In this document: positions 1 through 35,484 of the stretch, piece after piece
Numbering within the stretch: position 1 is the stretch's first letter
Layout of the letters: each line of letters starts with the position of its first letter
DNA from: a virus
Length of the DNA: 35,484 nucleotides
IMG/VR virus record: IMGVR_UViG_3300031216_000001
Coordinates: 1-35,484 of that record
Reading direction: 5' to 3' (one strand)
The notes under the pieces: generated by a model
The model's database searches: none
The model's input: only the letters and a program-made list of their open reading frames with translations
What the model was told of the DNA's origin: nothing
Program-made: the position numbers and the translations under genes

Positions 1-127
1 CTTCTCCTATATAGTTATTGTCAGCGTCTAGCTGATCTCTAGTAATAAGATGTACTTTCATTGTGTTACTCGCTTTCCTGTAGTGCTTGTTTAGCTAAAT
101 TTTCTACATATAATAGCGACCTTGCGA
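1..127. repeat. Terminal duplication, left copy (circle closure)
   Basis: These 127 bases are identical to 35358-35484. An exact overlap of this odd length is the size of a common assembler k-mer, so it most likely marks a circular or circularly permuted genome rather than a biological terminal repeat. The unique genome is then about 35,357 bp. Positions 1-61 encode, on the - strand, the first residues of the hexapeptide-repeat protein that is complete at 34648-35418. Confidence 0.95.
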
Positions 128-24678: not shown

Positions 24679-25893
24679 TTATGCGGCCATTTCTAGCAGT
24701 TTGATTGCTTCGAAGTTAATCACCGCACCACCGACACGTTTAGTGGTGTAGAACTTCACGAAAGGCTTGCTAGTGAACGGGTCACGCAAGACACGAACGC
24801 CAACGCGATCGACAATCTGATAACCGCGACGGAAGTCACCGAACGCGATCGGCACTGCGCCAGAGGCGACGGCCGGCATGTCGACGCATTCTTGCACCGG
24901 CTGCCCTGCTAGCGTTTGCGGTTGCCCCGCTGCTAGACCTGGCTGCCAGATGTACGCATTCGTCGTCGCTTCTTTAAGCAAACGAACGTTTTTCAAAGTC
25001 GCCCGCTTCATTAAGAATGACGCATTAGACGCGTAATCATCTTTTAAGCCGTAGAATAGGTCGTAGATATTGTCGGCGGTAATAGCGGTCGTAGAACCCG
25101 CGTTAATACGCTCGATCTTGCCGTATGTCGTGCCGTCGGCATAGTTAAGAATACCGCTAGGCTTGCCAACCCCATCACCATTAATGAAGCTAGCAGCCTC
25201 ACCTTTTGCGAAGGTTTCAGAAACCTTGTTAGCTAACCAGGCTTCAATATCAAGCGAAGAATCATCCAAAAGCTTTTGCGTGGCCTTTGGCGTTGCTGCC
25301 AATTCATGAACCTTGATTTCGATCTTTCCGAAGCCTGGCGTATCGGTGTCGCCGCCGTCTTCGGTTTCGCCGACCCACTCGTAGCCCATAAGGTCTTTAT
25401 CGACTAGAACAAGCAAGCTATCACTACCAATAGTTTCGACCGATGCAAGCTGGCGCATTGGCGAAATTTCTTGAATGACTTTCGAAATATTGCCCGACAT
25501 TTCAGGCGTTACAGTGTAGCCGCCGTCTTCTTCGGAATTGACCGACATAGCCTTCGCTTGTAATTCAGCGATAGCGGTGTCGTTACCCTTACGAAGATAA
25601 GATGACATAGCCGCCTTATATTCTGTGGCATCAACATCGCTAGCCGTACCGTCAAGGCTGCCCTTGTCTTTGCGCTGCAAAGCGGTTTCGATCTGCTTAA
25701 TCGTCGTTTCTTGCGAAGAAACCGCTTCGTTAATACGGTTTAATTCTTCTTTCGTAATGCCGTCTTTTTGGCGTTGCGCTTCTAGTTGATCATTCTTTTT
25801 TCGTAACGCTTCAACCATTGTACCCATTTCGTCGAACTTCGCCTTTAATTCGGGCGTTATTGCGACTTCGACCGTGGTGTTCTCCTGTGGCAT
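24679..25893 (-). CDS. Major capsid protein, HK97 fold (404 aa)
   Basis: Residues about 1-90 are a charged coiled coil (VEALRKKNDQLEAQRQKDGITKEELNRINEAVSSQETTIKQIETALQ), the delta scaffolding domain removed by the protease. The mature part shows the usual HK97 order: AAMSSYLRKGND (94-105), GGYTVTPEMSGNISKVIQEISPMRQLASV (124-152), the E-loop (YEWVGETEDGG…PGFGKIEIKVHELAATPKATQKLLDDSSLDIEAWL, 171-220), FINGDGVGKPSGIL (236-249), and the strongly conserved C-terminal domain ending GDFRRGYQIVDRVGVRVLRDPFTSKP... It lies downstream of the protease with AAAGGGGC before its ATG. A shorter paralog is encoded at 31186-32055. Confidence 0.96.
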   Translation of the reverse strand: MPQENTTVEVAITPELKAKFDEMGTMVEALRKKNDQLEAQRQKDGITKEELNRINEAVSSQETTIKQIETALQRKDKGSLDGTASDVDATEYKAAMSSYLRKGNDTAIAELQAKAMSVNSEEDGGYTVTPEMSGNISKVIQEISPMRQLASVETIGSDSLLVLVDKDLMGYEWVGETEDGGDTDTPGFGKIEIKVHELAATPKATQKLLDDSSLDIEAWLANKVSETFAKGEAASFINGDGVGKPSGILNYADGTTYGKIERINAGSTTAITADNIYDLFYGLKDDYASNASFLMKRATLKNVRLLKEATTNAYIWQPGLAAGQPQTLAGQPVQECVDMPAVASGAVPIAFGDFRRGYQIVDRVGVRVLRDPFTSKPFVKFYTTKRVGGAVINFEAIKLLEMAA

Positions 25894-25894
25894 G

Positions 25895-26584
25895 TTAAGC
25901 CCCTTTCATTGTTTTAATCAGTTTGTCGAATTCGCCAGTAATAGCCCGACTTGCTACGTCGCGTAGTTCAAGTTCGGAATGTTCGACCGCTTCGTCGCGA
26001 AGTTCGGTCGACGACGAAAAGCCATTACTGGCAATGGATTTCGCCGCATTGGCCGAAAAACCGCTTTCACGAAGAAAGGATTCAAACGACCGAATGTCGG
26101 TAACGTCGTCGACGGCTTTCGAAGCCAGTACGCGCGACGCTCTATTAGCCGGAAAGGTCACTACTGACACTTCCCATAGGTCGACCTCGCTTAGATAGCG
26201 AAGCCCTTTTGTACGATCAAAAGACTGTTTTTTCGTGACAAAGCCAATCGACAATCCGTCGACTTCGCCCTCTTTCATTAGAAAATGCGCTTCTTTTGCT
26301 AGGTCTAGTTCGTCGATGTATAGTTTACCCTCGACTAGAAGCCCCCGTTCGTCTTCTTTCATACTGGTATATTTGCCGATCACCTTGCTAGGGTCGTGCT
26401 GCCATAGCAGTTTTGGCATTTTCCCGTTTTTCTTGTGCGCTGCAAGCGACTTTTTAAAAGCCCCGCGCGTCACGATTTCTTTGTAACAGTCTACAATGTC
26501 AAAAACCGACCCATAACCAACGAAAGAACCGTCGTCACTAATCGACTTTATTTCAAACGGAATCGTTAAATGTTTGCGATTCAT
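25895..26584 (-). CDS. HK97-family prohead protease (229 aa)
   Basis: A peptidase S78-type maturation protease. The conserved catalytic His lies in LLWQHDPSKVIGKY (residues 59-72) and the Ser in DGLSIGF (residues 109-115), with VVTFPANRASRV near the end of the domain. It would cut the delta domain from the major capsid protein inside the prohead and then itself. The gene overlaps the portal gene by 32 bases. The C-terminal 80 residues are a helical, charged extension that may act as an internal scaffold contact. Confidence 0.92.
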   Translation of the reverse strand: MNRKHLTIPFEIKSISDDGSFVGYGSVFDIVDCYKEIVTRGAFKKSLAAHKKNGKMPKLLWQHDPSKVIGKYTSMKEDERGLLVEGKLYIDELDLAKEAHFLMKEGEVDGLSIGFVTKKQSFDRTKGLRYLSEVDLWEVSVVTFPANRASRVLASKAVDDVTDIRSFESFLRESGFSANAAKSIASNGFSSSTELRDEAVEHSELELRDVASRAITGEFDKLIKTMKGA

Positions 26585-28550: not shown

Positions 28551-29768
28551 TTAGTCTGGAATATACACGAACGCGGCCGGCGCGTGTAGTTTTTTTCTTG
28601 CTAACGCCAACGCGCAGACGACGTCATCGTGCAAGCCCTGTGGTGCTTCGTATTTTACACCGGTTCGCGAATAAGTATATTCAAACGTTTTAAGTTCTTC
28701 AACAATCACGCCGGCGGGGTAGCCAATTTCGCACTTCTGAATGCTAACGGTCAAGCCTTCCATAAGCTGTTGCTTGCTACTTGAAGAAAACTTAAAGCCC
28801 TCGAAGTTATCGCCGCCGTTTGCTTGTAGGTCTTCGAGTATTGCGTCACCTACGCCCGTCGAATCGACAAGCGCCGGCGTGCTACCTGTCGCCGCGATGA
28901 TGCGTTCTTTCGTCATGCGCCAGGGCGACTGAAAGCGCTCAATTCTACATACGTTCCCGTCTTCGTCTAGCGCAATTCCTACCGTCCAATCATAAGACTT
29001 TGCTAAATCCCACCCCCAGCAAACGGGCTTTTTCTTAGATAGCGAACGAATGCAAGCGTCGATATTGCTAATCCCGAACGGGTTGCCGCCGTCGTCCGAA
29101 GGCTCGGCCTCGTAAAGCTCTTTGAACACCCGTTCGGGTAACATGCTGCGTGCGTCGATGATCTCTTTTAGCGCAACGATGCCAGCTTCCACGGCATCCC
29201 AGCAAGTAAGCTTGTGATATTCTGCGTTTTCTTGCCCCGCCTCCGCTTTGCGACAACCTTTATAGTGCCAATTCTGGCGACCCTTAACGTTCCCGATAAA
29301 GCGCGCCATACCCCCCGTTGCGGTCAAGGTCGAGCGAATAGCGGCTAAAACTTCTTCTTTCGTGCGCGACGCTTCGTCGGCTACCAGCGCATAAACGTCG
29401 TCGCCGTATAAGCTATCGGGCTTATCCGCTGATTTGAAAACCAAAACCGCGCCGTTTGCTAAGACGATTTCTTTGTCGGATATATTGATCGACGACACAA
29501 ATTCGGCCGAAATGTTATGCCGCATGCGATTAAAGGCGATTTTAGCTTGCGAAGAAACCGGCGCGACCCACCAATAAGCCGCATTTGTCTTGCCGAATAG
29601 AACAGCTTGTTCTAGCAGCCAAGAAAGCGCCGGCTGCGTCTTTCCGCACTTAGTCGACCCCTCTATCCACGAATAGCGTGATTTCGTGTATATGGCGGCT
29701 TCCTGCAAGGGGTAACACCACGGCCGAACCCACTTCGCAGCTAAATCGACGCTAGGTTCGGCCGTCAT
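28551..29768 (-). CDS. terL: Terminase large subunit (405 aa)
   Basis: The packaging motor ATPase and nuclease. The Walker A motif is EGSTKCGKTQ (GSTKCGKT at 37-44) and Walker B is VYALVADEAS (Asp131, Glu132). A GNVKGRQNWHY segment (159-169) corresponds to the coupling motif region. The RNase-H-like nuclease follows, with candidate metal-binding residues in WGWDLAKSYDWT (Asp254), LVDSTGVGDAI (Asp302) and HDDVVCALALA (Asp381/Asp382). Length is at the short end of the family. It is ten bases upstream of the portal gene in the direction of reading, and the small subunit is unusually far away (33421-32897). Confidence 0.93.
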   Translation of the reverse strand: MTAEPSVDLAAKWVRPWCYPLQEAAIYTKSRYSWIEGSTKCGKTQPALSWLLEQAVLFGKTNAAYWWVAPVSSQAKIAFNRMRHNISAEFVSSINISDKEIVLANGAVLVFKSADKPDSLYGDDVYALVADEASRTKEEVLAAIRSTLTATGGMARFIGNVKGRQNWHYKGCRKAEAGQENAEYHKLTCWDAVEAGIVALKEIIDARSMLPERVFKELYEAEPSDDGGNPFGISNIDACIRSLSKKKPVCWGWDLAKSYDWTVGIALDEDGNVCRIERFQSPWRMTKERIIAATGSTPALVDSTGVGDAILEDLQANGGDNFEGFKFSSSSKQQLMEGLTVSIQKCEIGYPAGVIVEELKTFEYTYSRTGVKYEAPQGLHDDVVCALALARKKLHAPAAFVYIPD

Positions 29769-29771
29769 TTC

Positions 29772-30242
29772 TTAGCCTCGCTTTTTTTTACTCCGAAAGA
29801 TACCGGCGCGGCGTGCGGCGCGCTTCTCTTTTGGCTTTTCTTGCTCGACGACGCCTTGCTCTTTGCCTGTCGCTGGCATGCCTTCAGTGCGCGGGAATAT
29901 GAAAGTTCGGCCGCTGCGTTCGGCTAGGCGCGCGCCATTATTTATAAGCCCCTCAAGGCTAACGCTTCGGCCTACGCCTAAACGATTGCCGTTATCCATT
30001 AGCCAGACGTCATCGCTTTGCGGCTCAAGAATACGAATATCGGCTTCGGTTAAATATATTCGGCCTTTGAATTCGGCCGCAAGGTTCAATATATCATATA
30101 TAAATACGCCGTTTCGAAGTTCCCCACATATCTTGAAGTCGAGAACAACGCCTTTGCCGTTTTCGTCGATCATCGTGCCACGAACACCGAACGCCCGATT
30201 CATGTAGACAAATTCTTCTATGCTATCGTAAAAAAATTTCAT
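29772..30242 (-). CDS. Hypothetical protein with basic C-terminal tail (156 aa)
   Basis: The first 110 residues are predicted to be mixed alpha/beta (MKFFYDSIEEFVYMNRAFGVRGTMIDENGKGVVLDFKICGELRNGVFIYDILNLAAEF...). A Ser/Gly/Arg segment and a basic tail (KPKEKRAARRAGIFRSKKKRG) follow, which could bind DNA. It overlaps the DnaA-like gene by four bases (ATGA) and ends three bases before terL. The position between the accessory block and terL suggests a packaging accessory or a regulatory factor, but I recognise no family. Confidence 0.65.
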   Translation of the reverse strand: MKFFYDSIEEFVYMNRAFGVRGTMIDENGKGVVLDFKICGELRNGVFIYDILNLAAEFKGRIYLTEADIRILEPQSDDVWLMDNGNRLGVGRSVSLEGLINNGARLAERSGRTFIFPRTEGMPATGKEQGVVEQEKPKEKRAARRAGIFRSKKKRG

Positions 30243-30532
30243 AAGCCCCCGTCGTCTTCGCTAAGTATATGTTCAACCCTAGCGCATTTTGCGTCATAAT
30301 CAAAGTCGAACTTGCGACGTTCTATTATTGAAACTATGGAATGCGTTATCGTCGTATGATCTCGCTTGTATATCCTCGAAATATGCGCCTTTGTTTCTCC
30401 AAACATGCGCCAACGGCAATAAATTGCTATATTCCTAGCTTCGACAAATTCGGGTTTATGACTATGGCTTAGAATGTCTTTCTTCGATCTTTTGAAGACG
30501 ATAGACGCCGCTAGTTCGGGGTCGTGCTGCAT
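30239..30532 (-). CDS. Stand-alone DnaA domain IV (DNA-binding) protein (97 aa)
   Basis: The core matches the C-terminal DNA-binding domain of DnaA: ARNIAIYCRWRMFGETKAHISRIYKRDHTTITHSI (residues about 32-66). It includes the DnaA signature region with the helix-turn-helix and the RDHTT loop that reads the DnaA box in cellular DnaA. The ATPase domain is absent, so it cannot load helicase alone. It could compete with host DnaA at DnaA boxes, recruit factors to the phage origin, or regulate transcription. It lies in a tightly packed set of genes (a lipoprotein gene upstream and the 156-residue gene downstream). The fold is well supported; the role is inference. Confidence 0.8.
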   Translation of the reverse strand: MQHDPELAASIVFKRSKKDILSHSHKPEFVEARNIAIYCRWRMFGETKAHISRIYKRDHTTITHSIVSIIERRKFDFDYDAKCARVEHILSEDDGGL

Positions 30533-30664: not shown

Positions 30665-31189
30665 TCAAACCGTCGCGTTCATTAACTCGCTGTAATCGAA
30701 TTTCTTGCCTATGCAGTCCACGACCGAAACAAGTTGGTTTTCCGATTGCTTGATAACTTCGCCGTCGAAGACATAACTATATTTTGGCACGACAAGGCTG
30801 TTGTCGATAAATTGTCGACCTTTGCGAGTGATTCGCCACCACCCCGAACACCGCTTAGAATCGTCGTCGGGGTCGATTTTTGACTCGATCAACTGCCAAT
30901 ACGCCAGCTTGCCTAGGTCGCCGCTACCAATACCGCGCACGCCTAGAAAGTCGCTTATGTGAAAATAGGCGTCGGGATAAGGTAGCGCGGCGGCGGCGGC
31001 GGTTCGGTAAAGGTTTCGCAGCATAAGAATCATTGCCGTGTTAATCTGTCGCTTGTAGACCTTGCCATATCGACCGCATGTCGGGCAATCGCCATCTGCG
31101 CCGCCCATAATGTGGCGAAGGTAATCGCTTTGCGCGCGCTTTTGCCTAGTTGGTATTTGCGGCGGCTGCCAGTTTAATAAATCGTTCAT
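30665..31189 (-). CDS. Zn-knuckle plus winged-helix phage protein (174 aa)
   Basis: A probable zinc-binding CPTCGRYGKVYKRQ (residues 35-48; only two cysteines, so the site needs other ligands or a dimer) is followed by a helical winged-helix-like region. The region (INTAMILMLRNLYRTAAAAA, HISDFLGVRGIGSGDLGKLAYWQLIESK, then GWWRITRKGRQFIDNSL) has the turn and wing pattern of a DNA-binding domain. The C-terminus (VPKYSYVFDGEV…GKKFDYSELM) is also conserved in this family, which I recall as common in phages but unassigned. It overlaps the capsid paralog by four bases (ATGA). DNA binding is likely; function unknown. Confidence 0.72.
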   Translation of the reverse strand: MNDLLNWQPPQIPTRQKRAQSDYLRHIMGGADGDCPTCGRYGKVYKRQINTAMILMLRNLYRTAAAAALPYPDAYFHISDFLGVRGIGSGDLGKLAYWQLIESKIDPDDDSKRCSGWWRITRKGRQFIDNSLVVPKYSYVFDGEVIKQSENQLVSVVDCIGKKFDYSELMNATV

Positions 31190-32055
31190 GGTGCGCCCGT
31201 CACTTTCAAAAGCTTGATTGCATCAACGTTCATTACTTCGCCGCCTGCACGCCGCGCGCAAAAGAACTTAACGTAGGGTTTGTCGGTAAAGGGGTCGCGA
31301 AGAACTGCCGTTTTTATGTTTTTAACGACGTGATACCCCGCGCGAAAGTCGCCTATCGCCACGCAAGGGCTGTCGCTGCCAATATCTCCCATTTGTTCCC
31401 ACTCATAAACGGGCAAGCCTAGAATCGTTTCGGGCGCGCCTACTGCAAGACTTGACTGCCAGATGTAGCAATTCGTTGCAGGGTCTACAATACTCCTGGA
31501 TTTCTCTAAGGTTTTTCGGTTCATTAAGACTACGGCGCTTTTGGTGTATTCCTCTTTAAGAGAATAAAAAGTTTCTTTTATCGCCTCGCAATCTAAATTT
31601 TTCGCTACGCCCGTTTCTAGTTCGGCCGACACAATGCCGCGCGGCTGGTTTATTCCGTTTCCATGGAAAAAGGCTTCGTCTTCACTTTTGAAAAATATAG
31701 GCGCTACACGCTTGGCAAGCCATTCGGAAATATTGGCCATAGCACCCGAATCTATTTGCAGTTGCGTCGTTTTTGGCACTGCGTAATGCTGATAAGCATG
31801 AATTGCGCTTGCATCATAGCCGCCCGACCAGCCGTTCGGTGTAGACTCTATTTGCAAAGCCCCGCTTGCTATTCCTGTGATGGATGAAACGGCCTCAATC
31901 GTCGACATGCCGCTGACAATAGAATCGACCTTTGCATCAAAAGCTTCGCCGGCAAAGTACCCGCCTTGCGGCGCTTTTTCTAATCCGCTGCCTTCGCCGC
32001 CGCGTCCACGTAGATAGCGCGCAAACGCCGCGTTTTGTTCCTCTGCATTATTCAT
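31186..32055 (-). CDS. Second HK97-fold capsid protein without scaffold domain (289 aa)
   Basis: This is a clear paralog of the major capsid protein at 24679-25893. It lacks the N-terminal delta domain and starts where the mature subunit would (AFARYLRGRG, then GGYFAGEAFDAKVDSIVSGMSTIEAVSSITGI). The E-loop is present but shorter by roughly nine residues (GWSGGYDASAIHAYQHYAVPKTTQLQ). The peptide FHGNGINQPRGIV and the C-terminal domain (ATNCYIWQSSL... GDFRAGYHVV... VLRDPFTDKPYVKFF) match closely: about 47 of 93 residues are identical by hand count. GAGGAGC precedes the ATG, and its stop overlaps the next start. It is an intact, expressed-looking gene in the block between terS and terL. It could be a minor capsid subunit or an interfering decoy. 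Confidence 0.88.
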   Translation of the reverse strand: MNNAEEQNAAFARYLRGRGGEGSGLEKAPQGGYFAGEAFDAKVDSIVSGMSTIEAVSSITGIASGALQIESTPNGWSGGYDASAIHAYQHYAVPKTTQLQIDSGAMANISEWLAKRVAPIFFKSEDEAFFHGNGINQPRGIVSAELETGVAKNLDCEAIKETFYSLKEEYTKSAVVLMNRKTLEKSRSIVDPATNCYIWQSSLAVGAPETILGLPVYEWEQMGDIGSDSPCVAIGDFRAGYHVVKNIKTAVLRDPFTDKPYVKFFCARRAGGEVMNVDAIKLLKVTGAP

Positions 32056-32263
32056 CTAAAGCTCCTCTTATATCGTCGAGTCGCGTCGCATGCCCGACAT
32101 AGTTTTCGCGCCGAAGAACATCGGCCGCCATTTCTAAATGGTGCGCCGCGCCCCCTGGCATAGCTTCGGCGTATTCAATCCCCCTGCTTCTGATTTCCTT
32201 TAATAGGTCGTCGTCGTCGACTTCTTCGAACAAGTCCGAAAGTGAAATGTAAACGCTTGGCAT
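32048..32263 (-). CDS. Hypothetical acidic protein (71 aa)
   Basis: The product is acidic and helical (YISLSDLFEEVDDDDLLKEIRSRGIEYAEAMPGGAAHHLEMAADVLRRENYVGHATRLDDIRGALDE), with no signal or membrane span. It overlaps the start of the capsid paralog by eight bases and follows the 82-residue gene after a short gap (5 bases). An AAAGGTAGC-type ribosome site precedes its ATG. The pattern DDDDLLKEI..RG recurs in several small phage proteins of unknown role; I do not recognise the family. Its tight linkage to the capsid paralog makes a shared role possible. Confidence 0.7.
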   Translation of the reverse strand: MPSVYISLSDLFEEVDDDDLLKEIRSRGIEYAEAMPGGAAHHLEMAADVLRRENYVGHATRLDDIRGALDE

Positions 32264-32896: not shown

Positions 32897-33421
32897 TTAT
32901 TCTTCGACGATATTGCCGTCTTCGTCGCGGCTAATTCCGGCCGCTTCCATATCTAAGCGGTTTTGCTCTGCGCGCTCTTTTGCCCATGCTGGCGGTTCGC
33001 CCATTTCGAAGGTTACGGTTATTTCTTTTTTGGTGTCGCCTAGAAGTTCTAGTTTGTCTTTGTTGCTCCAGCGCTGCGAATCGCGGTTTTCTAATATGTA
33101 TTTTTGCGCCTGAAAGTGTCGGTCTTCGATAGCGCTTTCGAACATGGCGTTTTCGACCTGCATTAAACGCAGCCGCTTACCTTGTTTGTAGGTGTCGGCA
33201 AACTCCCGATTAAACACTTCGGTTTTCACTTTGGCGCTTTTGAATTTCGGGTCAATCAACGCCAAGTAATGCTTTAATTCTTCTTTGGAATACCCACGGC
33301 ACGCCATTTGCATCACAAGCGCATGCTCTTGTGGCGTGAATTCTTGTCGCTTTCGCCCCGAACCAGGGCGCGCGCCGCCGCGTGTAGACGGCTTGCTTGT
33401 TGCTGTTTTTTTCGTTGTCAT
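32897..33421 (-). CDS. terS: Terminase small subunit (174 aa)
   Basis: The N-terminus is basic (TTKKTATSKPSTRGGARPGSGRKRQ), followed by a helix-turn-helix-like region (EFTPQEHALVMQMACRGYSKEELKHYLAL) and an oligomerisation helix part (NREFADTYKQGKRLRLMQVENAMFESAIEDRHFQAQKYILENRDSQRW). The C-terminus is a beta segment with an acidic tail. This is the pattern of phage small terminases of the GRPG…K type that bind packaging sites and feed TerL. It is about 3.1 kb upstream of terL in reading direction, with the accessory block between. There is no clear ribosome site; a strong promoter is so close that the mRNA may be leaderless. Confidence 0.8.
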   Translation of the reverse strand: MTTKKTATSKPSTRGGARPGSGRKRQEFTPQEHALVMQMACRGYSKEELKHYLALIDPKFKSAKVKTEVFNREFADTYKQGKRLRLMQVENAMFESAIEDRHFQAQKYILENRDSQRWSNKDKLELLGDTKKEITVTFEMGEPPAWAKERAEQNRLDMEAAGISRDEDGNIVEE

Positions 33422-33427
33422 GGCGCT

Positions 33428-33455
33428 ATTATATCAGACTTTCGTTAATTGCCAA
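33428..33455 (-). promoter_or_regulatory. Strong predicted promoter for terS
   Basis: On the - strand TTGGCA (33455-33450) precedes a perfect TATAAT (33433-33428) with a 16-base spacer. Only six bases separate the -10 from the ATG at 33421, so transcription should start at or very near the A of the ATG. Confidence 0.65.
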
Positions 33456-34427: not shown

Positions 34428-34651
34428 TTTAAATCATTCTCAATACTTTCTCTTAATGAGCTAGCCGCATCTTCTATGGCCGATTCGCTCAACAACTCAT
34501 CCTTCATCCACTCGATAGCGGCTTGCCAGGCAAGCCATTCCAGATCAACGATCGCATTTACATACTCTCCACCCTCATTTCTTTCTAATATGGATGCATT
34601 TTCTTTAGCTGCCCACTCCTCAAAAGCCTTTCGCTGTGCGTGATTCATCAC
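34412..34651 (-). CDS. Small hypothetical phage protein (79 aa)
   Basis: The product is a soluble helical protein (NHAQRKAFEEWAAKENASILERNEGGEYVNAIVDLEWLAWQAAIEWMKDELLSESAIED) with the FEEWAAKE…Y.N…..LEWLAWQAA pattern of a widespread phage protein that I recall as of unknown function. It ends 16 bases into the methyltransferase start (overlap) and follows the hexapeptide-repeat gene with a four-base overlap. The three genes appear to move as one block, because their base composition differs from the rest of the genome. Confidence 0.75.
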   Translation of the reverse strand: MMNHAQRKAFEEWAAKENASILERNEGGEYVNAIVDLEWLAWQAAIEWMKDELLSESAIEDAASSLRESIENDLKCLST

Positions 34652-35418
34652 CCCTCGCTTTCCTGCTTCATGAGTTTATATTCCACGCCTTCAATCACTA
34701 CCACTTTACCATCACATGATGCGATTAAAGGCTTCTTCTTCGGTGCAGTGATGACTAGCTCACCAAACGCCACCGTTCCCTTGCGCAATTCCCCACACTT
34801 AATTTGCATTTCTTCTTGTTCTGGAGTTCTCCATAAGCATATTCCAGCAAAAATTCTAAGACCGCCGCTTATCCATTCACCGGTTATAGACAGACCTGCT
34901 TCGATGCCAATACCTGCTTCGATGCCAGCACCTGCTTTGATGCCAGCGCCCGCTTCGATGCCAGAACCTGCTTCGATGCCAGCGCCTGCTTTGATGCCAG
35001 CACCTGCTTCGATGCCAGAACCTGCTTTGATGCCCCAGCCTGCTTTGATGCCAGCGCCTGCTTCGATGCCCCAGCCTGCTTCGATGCCCCAACCTGCTTC
35101 GATGCCAGCGCCTGCTTTGATGCCAGCACCTGCTTCGATGCCCCAGCCTGCTTTGATGCCAGCGCTGGCATCGATGCCCCAACCTGCTTCGATGCCAGCG
35201 CCTGCTTCGATGCCAGTACCTGCTTCGATGCCCCAGCCTGCTTTGATGCCAGTACCTGCGCGGAACAATATATGAAACTTGGCCTTGATCGACTTGAACC
35301 TCACACTCCCAAGATTCTCCTCTGCTTCGATTGCTCCATCAAAATCAGTTAAGTCTACTTCTCCTATATAGTTATTGTCAGCGTCTAGCTGATCTCTAGT
35401 AATAAGATGTACTTTCAT
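34648..35418 (-). CDS. Hexapeptide-repeat protein, probable left-handed beta-helix (256 aa)
   Basis: Residues 53-178 are 21 copies of a six-residue unit G-I-[EKD]-A-G-x with x mostly Ala, Trp, Thr or Ser. A strict six-residue period with Ile at one position and small residues elsewhere suggests a left-handed beta-helix of about seven turns. The N-terminal 52 residues (…AKFHILFRAG) and the C-terminal 78 (LSITGEWISGGLRIFAGICLWRTPEQEEMQIKCGEL… AFGELVITAPKKKPLIASCDGKVVVIEG) flank it. I recall relatives in other tailed phages, unassigned. The ATG at 35418 corresponds to base 61 in the left copy. It could be virion-associated, surface-binding or enzyme-like; function unknown. Confidence 0.75.
   Translation of the reverse strand: MKVHLITRDQLDADNNYIGEVDLTDFDGAIEAEENLGSVRFKSIKAKFHILFRAGTGIKAGWGIEAGTGIEAGAGIEAGWGIDASAGIKAGWGIEAGAGIKAGAGIEAGWGIEAGWGIEAGAGIKAGWGIKAGSGIEAGAGIKAGAGIEAGSGIEAGAGIKAGAGIEAGIGIEAGLSITGEWISGGLRIFAGICLWRTPEQEEMQIKCGELRKGTVAFGELVITAPKKKPLIASCDGKVVVIEGVEYKLMKQESEG
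34885..35262. repeat. Tandem 18-base repeat array (about 21 units)
   Basis: The unit on the + strand is close to CCTGCTTCGATGCCAGCA, repeated with few substitutions. It encodes the hexapeptide repeats of the 34648-35418 gene. The 18-base period keeps several other frames free of stops, giving long spurious ORFs on both strands. Near-identity of the units indicates recent expansion or conversion and makes copy-number change likely. Confidence 0.92.
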
Positions 35419-35484
35419 TGTGTTACTCGCTTTCCTGTAGTGCTTGTTTAGCTAAATTTTCTACATATAATAGCGACCTTGCGA
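35358..35484. repeat. Terminal duplication, right copy (circle closure)
   Basis: Exact copy of 1-127; see the left copy. The 5' end of the hexapeptide-repeat gene (up to 35418) lies in it, followed by part of the gene that starts at 260 in the left copy. Confidence 0.95.

Follow-up and report, generated by a model that had tools for sequence, protein, structure and literature searches.

Why does a small phage with a capsid protein that includes its own scaffold carry a second capsid gene, away from its head genes, and what might the product do? We addressed these questions for the IMG/VR virus record IMGVR_UViG_3300031216_000001, analysed over all of its 35,484 bases (hereafter the window). 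In this record an open reading frame (ORF) on the minus strand (31186-32055), which we call the paralog, runs open and intact from ATG to TGA over 289 codons between the genes for the small and large terminase subunits (terS and terL). An earlier note, made from the sequence alone, had described the product as a second, scaffold-less HK97 capsid protein, encoded by an intact gene at this position. Our analysis upholds the capsid identity, the intactness and the location, shows the scaffold to be almost absent rather than entirely so, and leads us to favour, tentatively, a special second subunit that would co-assemble with the phage's major capsid protein (MCP).

The paralog is an HK97-fold capsid protein

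The paralog shares 32% identity with its own MCP over 317 columns (BLASTP, 170 bits, E = 1e-54), and the C-terminal similarity that the earlier note had counted by hand as 47/93 residues comes to 46/93 in the family alignment. It matches PF05065 (E = 1.9e-39; 136.2 bits, cut-off 24.2) and TIGR01554 (175.2 bits, cut-off 27.5). The Pfam scan gave PF05065 only, placing the protein outside the T4 capsid family, and the Pfam and NCBIfam scans together returned capsid families only, with no encapsulin family match. The AlphaFold2 model (predicted local distance difference test score, pLDDT, 86.3; predicted template modelling score, pTM, 0.83) has the HK97 fold, with N-arm, a short E-loop, P-domain and A-domain. 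Its nearest folds in the PDB are the capsid of RcGTA (Z = 22.3) and that of the capsid-forming phage-inducible chromosomal island (cf-PICI) EcCI2 (Z = 21.9), while the remaining phage capsids and the encapsulins score Z = 15-19. The paralog thus belongs to the HK97 capsid family on grounds of both sequence and fold, but is atypical when measured against MCPs with a delta domain.

Reduced pro-part and shortened E-loop

Anatomy was read from an alignment with other MCPs and from AlphaFold2 models of both proteins (pLDDT 86 and 87), which agree. In the own MCP, helices at residues 14-40, 47-76 and 87-102 precede a likely cleavage site at K114/A115. The paralog opens with a single helix (residues 3-16), aligned with MCP helix 87-102, and then has an aligned K27/A28; it therefore has no long-helix scaffold but keeps the region beside the cleavage site. 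The claim that the delta domain is lacking accordingly holds for the two long scaffold helices, which are gone, and fails for the last helix and the aligned K/A pair, which are kept. What is left, 27 residues with one helix, falls short of a full, cleaved N-terminal delta scaffolding domain. Modelled RcGTA capsid chains, which cover up to 297/386 residues, fit a chain start near the aligned K/A. A longer form of the paralog is ruled out, because the codon directly before its ATG is an in-frame TAG, and so is a delta domain split off into the upstream 71-residue gene, whose product has no similarity to the MCP.

Shortening of the E-loop, also proposed earlier, amounts to about 15 residues (66-92 in the paralog against 159-200 in the MCP); the N-arm is about 6 residues shorter and one A-domain loop about 12 residues shorter than in the MCP. 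Two features that are near-invariant in MCPs, the RDPFTxKP motif and a GG pair, are both present. From the alignment with HK97, the motif presumably belongs to a P-domain loop that lies close to the three-fold axes, where capsomers meet. The E-loop, by comparison, acts within a capsomer (PMC8569155). The motif kept at this place, together with an E-loop that has changed, suggests a subunit that would still fit the lattice but mix less freely inside MCP capsomers.

Divergence and constraint

The branch leading to the paralog measures 2.9 changes per column, compared with 0.8 for the own MCP. The gene contains no stops, where the neutral expectation is about 15 at 65% amino-acid divergence and about 10 at 50%; a rough, simple calculation puts the probability of this absence under neutrality at about 1e-5 to 1e-7. 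At variable columns the paralog shows 17% agreement with the family, a value that climbs to 69% where conservation is at least 90%, and residues are retained preferentially at columns conserved to at least 70% relative to those below 50% (Fisher p = 1e-8). GC content at the three codon positions (GC1 0.55, GC2 0.45, GC3 0.49) is MCP-like. Judged by these patterns, the paralog is apparently long-diverged yet under purifying constraint, in line with the selection that the earlier note had supposed.

Of the 52 columns that are at least 90% conserved in 205 MCPs, 14 are changed in the paralog, against 2 in the own MCP. Compared with the MCP of its best database match (L014), the paralog is 28% identical in the N-arm and E-loop and 45% elsewhere, the corresponding values for the own MCP being 48% and 57%; the difference within the paralog has an uncorrected p = 0.02, in a region that is less conserved anyway. 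The pattern is that of a protein with either a kept fold and a new role, or relaxed constraint.

Origin and relatives

The top matches of the paralog are MCPs of alphaproteobacterial phages and of clusters resembling gene transfer agents (GTAs), led by L014 (198 bits), L173 (197) and L093 (192), all ahead of the own MCP. Import is possible for this reason. The own MCP is somewhat divergent, which explains part of the BLAST order. An approximately unbiased (AU) test rejects neither a sister relationship of paralog and own MCP (p = 0.36) nor a clade with the relatives (p = 0.356). The duplication assumed in the earlier note is hence compatible with the trees, but the matches to other MCPs leave two possible origins, duplication or import.

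A search of related phages for a counterpart at this terS-terL position, as had been proposed, gave no close relative or ortholog in IMG/VR or in 84,980 GTDB genomes (one per species), and a second capsid copy appeared in 0/64 IMG/VR records searched with the paralog, many of which are fragments. Scans for sister phages with terL, the portal gene, the 174-residue neighbour and a tail gene recovered three short contigs by terL and, by the portal gene, a contig of 28.7 kb (L257), the latter holding a single capsid gene. Nor was a third capsid copy found in the phage genome itself.

Across the 203 phage records in which a capsid was matched, ctuI7215 was the only other phage with a second capsid gene, and of 252 loci only the paralog, the ctuI7215 copy and L179 (248 residues) are short yet complete ORFs. 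Nine of the 52 conserved residues, including R147, R363 and Y382, are lost in both the paralog and the ctuI7215 copy (p = 0.05); this is no more than suggestive of convergent loss, and arises partly from the E-loop shortening common to both. The salt bridge R147/D362 might also have been swapped, to E54/K245. Two further candidates for short capsid paralogs, L104 and L165, were rejected as broken genes. The two capsid places in Salmonella phage sal3 (KU927493.2) are not paralogs either: this record, 77 kb long, contains the head genes of a single phage more than once and looks like a duplicated assembly. The bacterial survey was a sample of 115 genomes from the class of G058. Delta-less capsid-like genes were observed in alphaproteobacterial genomes at L254 (2539-3498) and L255 (530-1453), with a similar gene for a small membrane protein after each, and no further head genes were recognised beside them in the 4-5.5 kb fetched.

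Genomic context and expression

The first and last 127 bases of the window (1-127 and 35358-35484) are identical and form an exact direct terminal repeat; the window is therefore a complete phage genome. The repeat has a common assembly word length and marks completeness, not a physical end; the genome, circular or circularly permuted, has 35,357 bp. Genes for terminase, portal, capsid, tail, lysis, RecE/RecT and primosomal proteins are present. The paralog lies 4.6 kb from the protease gene and is adjacent to neither that gene nor the portal gene (Table 1).

Table 1. Coordinates of the paralog, its parts and the surrounding features in the window.
Feature	Coordinates	Strand	Basis or remark
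Capsid paralog P0001, 289 aa, HK97 fold	31186..32055	-	PF05065, TIGR01554, identity to own MCP, AlphaFold2, PDB comparison
Paralog residual pro-part, residues 1-27	31975..32055	-	Alignment, secondary structure; predicted cleavage
Paralog shortened E-loop, residues 66-92	31780..31860	-	Alignment and models; tip 76-80 of low confidence
RDPFTDKP motif, paralog residues 253-260	31276..31299	-	Near-invariant in MCPs, retained
Shine-Dalgarno AGGAG	32062..32066	-	6 nt before paralog ATG; in-frame TAG directly before ATG
71-aa protein, upstream of paralog	32048..32263	-	Its stop overlaps paralog start
174-aa protein, phrog_2693 (unknown)	30665..31189	-	Overlaps paralog end by 4 bp
terS, terminase small subunit	32897..33421	-	phrog_309, E = 4.5e-07
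Sigma-70-like promoter before terS, TTGGCA-16-TATAAT, extended -10	33428..33455	-	Region not enriched over shuffles
terL, terminase large subunit	28551..29768	-	phrog_2, E = 1.5e-26; PF03237
Own MCP P0002, 404 aa, full delta domain	24679..25893	-	PF05065, E = 4.4e-85; model pLDDT 87.1
Prohead protease (likely)	25895..26584	-	Adjoins MCP, not paralog; resembles protease ORFs found at this position in related contigs

The strong ribosome site that the earlier note had seen is there, and, together with the overlaps of the paralog with both neighbouring genes, it indicates that the paralog is probably translated as part of the run from terS towards terL. The proposed resemblance of the promoter to the early ones found no support: the single strong promoter-like site upstream on this strand (11/12) lies just before terS, and such sites are no more numerous in the region than in shuffled DNA (9 against 6.6 +/- 3.0).

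Three other genes deserve mention. Between terS and terL, a 97-residue protein (30239-30532, minus strand) consists of a DnaA DNA-binding domain alone (PF08299, E = 8.5e-10). A 256-residue ORF (34648-35418, minus strand) encodes many copies of a short repeat, AGxGIEAGxGIKAG..., and has no PHROG match. Relatives of the 174-residue phrog_2693 protein in the phage collection are almost all from mycobacteriophages (228 records), which is odd beside capsid genes of alphaproteobacterial type.

Possible roles of the second capsid protein

Low identity to the main subunit and a short pro-part are common to the paralog and to two known second capsid proteins, Ccm of the satellite SaPIbov5 and gp24 of phage T4, and it is on this ground that we tentatively prefer a special second subunit that co-assembles, most likely as pentamers, over any single alternative considered below. 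Such a protein would be expressed with the packaging genes and would enter the shell built by the own MCP, at the vertex pentamers most likely or at another minority of positions. Recruitment might proceed through contacts in the lattice with capsomers of the MCP, which bear the full scaffold, the phage protease might cleave the paralog at K27, and paralogs would associate with one another within a capsomer because they have ceased to match the MCP in E-loop and N-arm. Computed support comes from the intact HK97 fold, the constrained sequence, the reduced pro-part, the short E-loop, the altered N-arm and E-loop residues and the kept P-domain core and RDPFTxKP loop. Several considerations weigh on the other side. 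In phages of such size the MCP normally supplies the pentamers too, and there is no sign that this MCP has lost the ability to form them. The paralog is far from the head genes, unlike the gene for gp24, which adjoins that for gp23 in T4. With no ortholog in relatives, it is not a conserved structural part, and without most of the delta domain its recruitment is unexplained.

The main alternative shares the co-assembly step and differs in the target shell. As a capsid poison or size switch, the paralog would co-assemble with the shells of satellites, co-infecting phages or GTA-like elements in the alphaproteobacterial host and divert them into dead-end or small particles. We consider this possible but doubtful. 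An orphan, accessory position and the lack of orthologs suit an arms-race gene, the ctuI7215 copy sits among early genes, and MCPs from other phages and from GTA-like clusters outscore the own MCP as matches to the paralog, although the divergence of the own MCP accounts for part of that order. PmCI172 and EcCICFT073 likewise have capsid homologs (PMC6092414). However, the paralog shares the late-gene strand with the packaging genes beside it, and its product would there encounter the own MCP first; moreover, no satellite of this phage is known.

That the paralog is instead a decaying relic or moron, the functionless remnant of an older head module since replaced, seems unlikely. The absence of orthologs from both collections, the long branch and the alterations at highly conserved positions are what a relic would show, and delta-less orphan capsid genes occur also in reduced alphaproteobacterial genomes; against this, all 289 codons are intact, with coding base composition and a good ribosome site, the gene overlaps tightly with both neighbours, and conserved residues are retained.

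More improbable again is a decoy for capsid-sensing defence, in which a capsid mimic that does not assemble would occupy MCP-recognising host sensors of the CapRel type without triggering them. Decoys of this kind are not known to us, the paralog sequence gives no hint of a sensor, and a position on the late strand seems late for the purpose; on the other hand, the core is kept while the assembly parts are reduced, and capsid-sensing immunity exists (PMC9712102). Least credible is a small self-assembling shell made during infection, an encapsulin-like compartment: encapsulins are also without a delta domain and give good fold scores (Z = 15-17), but the RcGTA and EcCI2 MCPs score above them (Z = 22), PF05065 is the sole Pfam match, no cargo gene was recognised, and Ccm by itself forms no shells (PMC8569155).

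Comparison with known systems

Second capsid copies are known mainly from large-headed phages, with heads of T4 type, and from phage satellites; in the open-licence literature we found no report of a second capsid subunit in a small phage with scaffold fused to the capsid protein. The protein may form special particle corners or disturb the shell building of rivals. Should it enter the own shell, the phage would offer a two-gene system in which to test the distinction between pentamers and hexamers with the scaffold on one of two subunits; should it act on others, phages would be wielding a weapon that satellites, for their part, turn on phages. A broader statement, that a small delta-domain phage has its own Ccm-like subunit altering shells, whether its own (vertices or size) or those of satellites, GTA-like elements or rivals, and that near scaffold-less subunits of this kind may have had at least two origins, one here and one in ctuI7215, strikes us as conceivable though rather unlikely.

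The ctuI7215 copy (MW202777.1, L012 3714-4499, UOF81702; 261 residues) resembles the paralog in being delta-less, away from head genes and without close relatives. It differs in its position among early genes and, at 25% identity, is not an ortholog; its loss is also fuller, extending to the N-arm and most of the E-loop. The solved structure nearest to the paralog, both by sequence (8e-34) and by fold (Z = 22.3), is the RcGTA MCP Rcc01687 (6tb9, 6tba), which unlike the paralog is the MCP of its own particle and possesses the N-terminal part and a normal-length E-loop. L253-L255, from reduced alphaproteobacterial genomes, share the absence of a delta domain but have a normal E-loop and form a separate group (Shimodaira-Hasegawa-like approximate likelihood ratio test, SH-aLRT, 99, in a quick tree with long branches).

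We found two characterised second HK97-fold capsid proteins in the literature, T4 gp24 (PMC9958956) and SaPIbov5 Ccm (PMC8569155). T4 gp24, which forms the pentameric vertices, is about 20% identical to gp23, loses only 10 residues at maturation and probably stems from gene duplication (PMC9958956). The comparison with gp24 and gp23 drawn in the earlier note is apt insofar as gp24 is likewise a second capsid protein in the same genome, is probably an MCP duplicate that has since diverged and has a short pro-part, as the paralog would have if cleaved at K27. T4, in contrast, is a large prolate phage with a capsid of another family, gp24 is essential, and gene position, conservation and possibly role differ. 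Ccm is 24% identical to the capsid protein (CP) of phi12, has a pro-part of 87 rather than 128 residues and differs in the N-arm; it fills all pentamers of the small capsid, needs CP and forms no shells alone (PMC8569155), and by itself it cuts phage titre 10^3-10^4-fold (PMC8569155, PMC5052747). Both Ccm and the paralog are HK97 homologs of a delta-domain MCP at low identity (24% for Ccm, 32% for the paralog), distinct from that MCP, with a shortened pro-part and an altered N-arm and E-loop. Ccm, however, is the product of a satellite gene and hijacks a helper, whereas the paralog belongs to a complete phage genome, and the delta domain of Ccm is shortened by only about 40 residues, whereas the paralog has just 27 residues before the aligned cleavage site as well as a shorter E-loop. 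On this comparison, Ccm of SaPIbov5 is a closer precedent for the paralog than T4 gp24.
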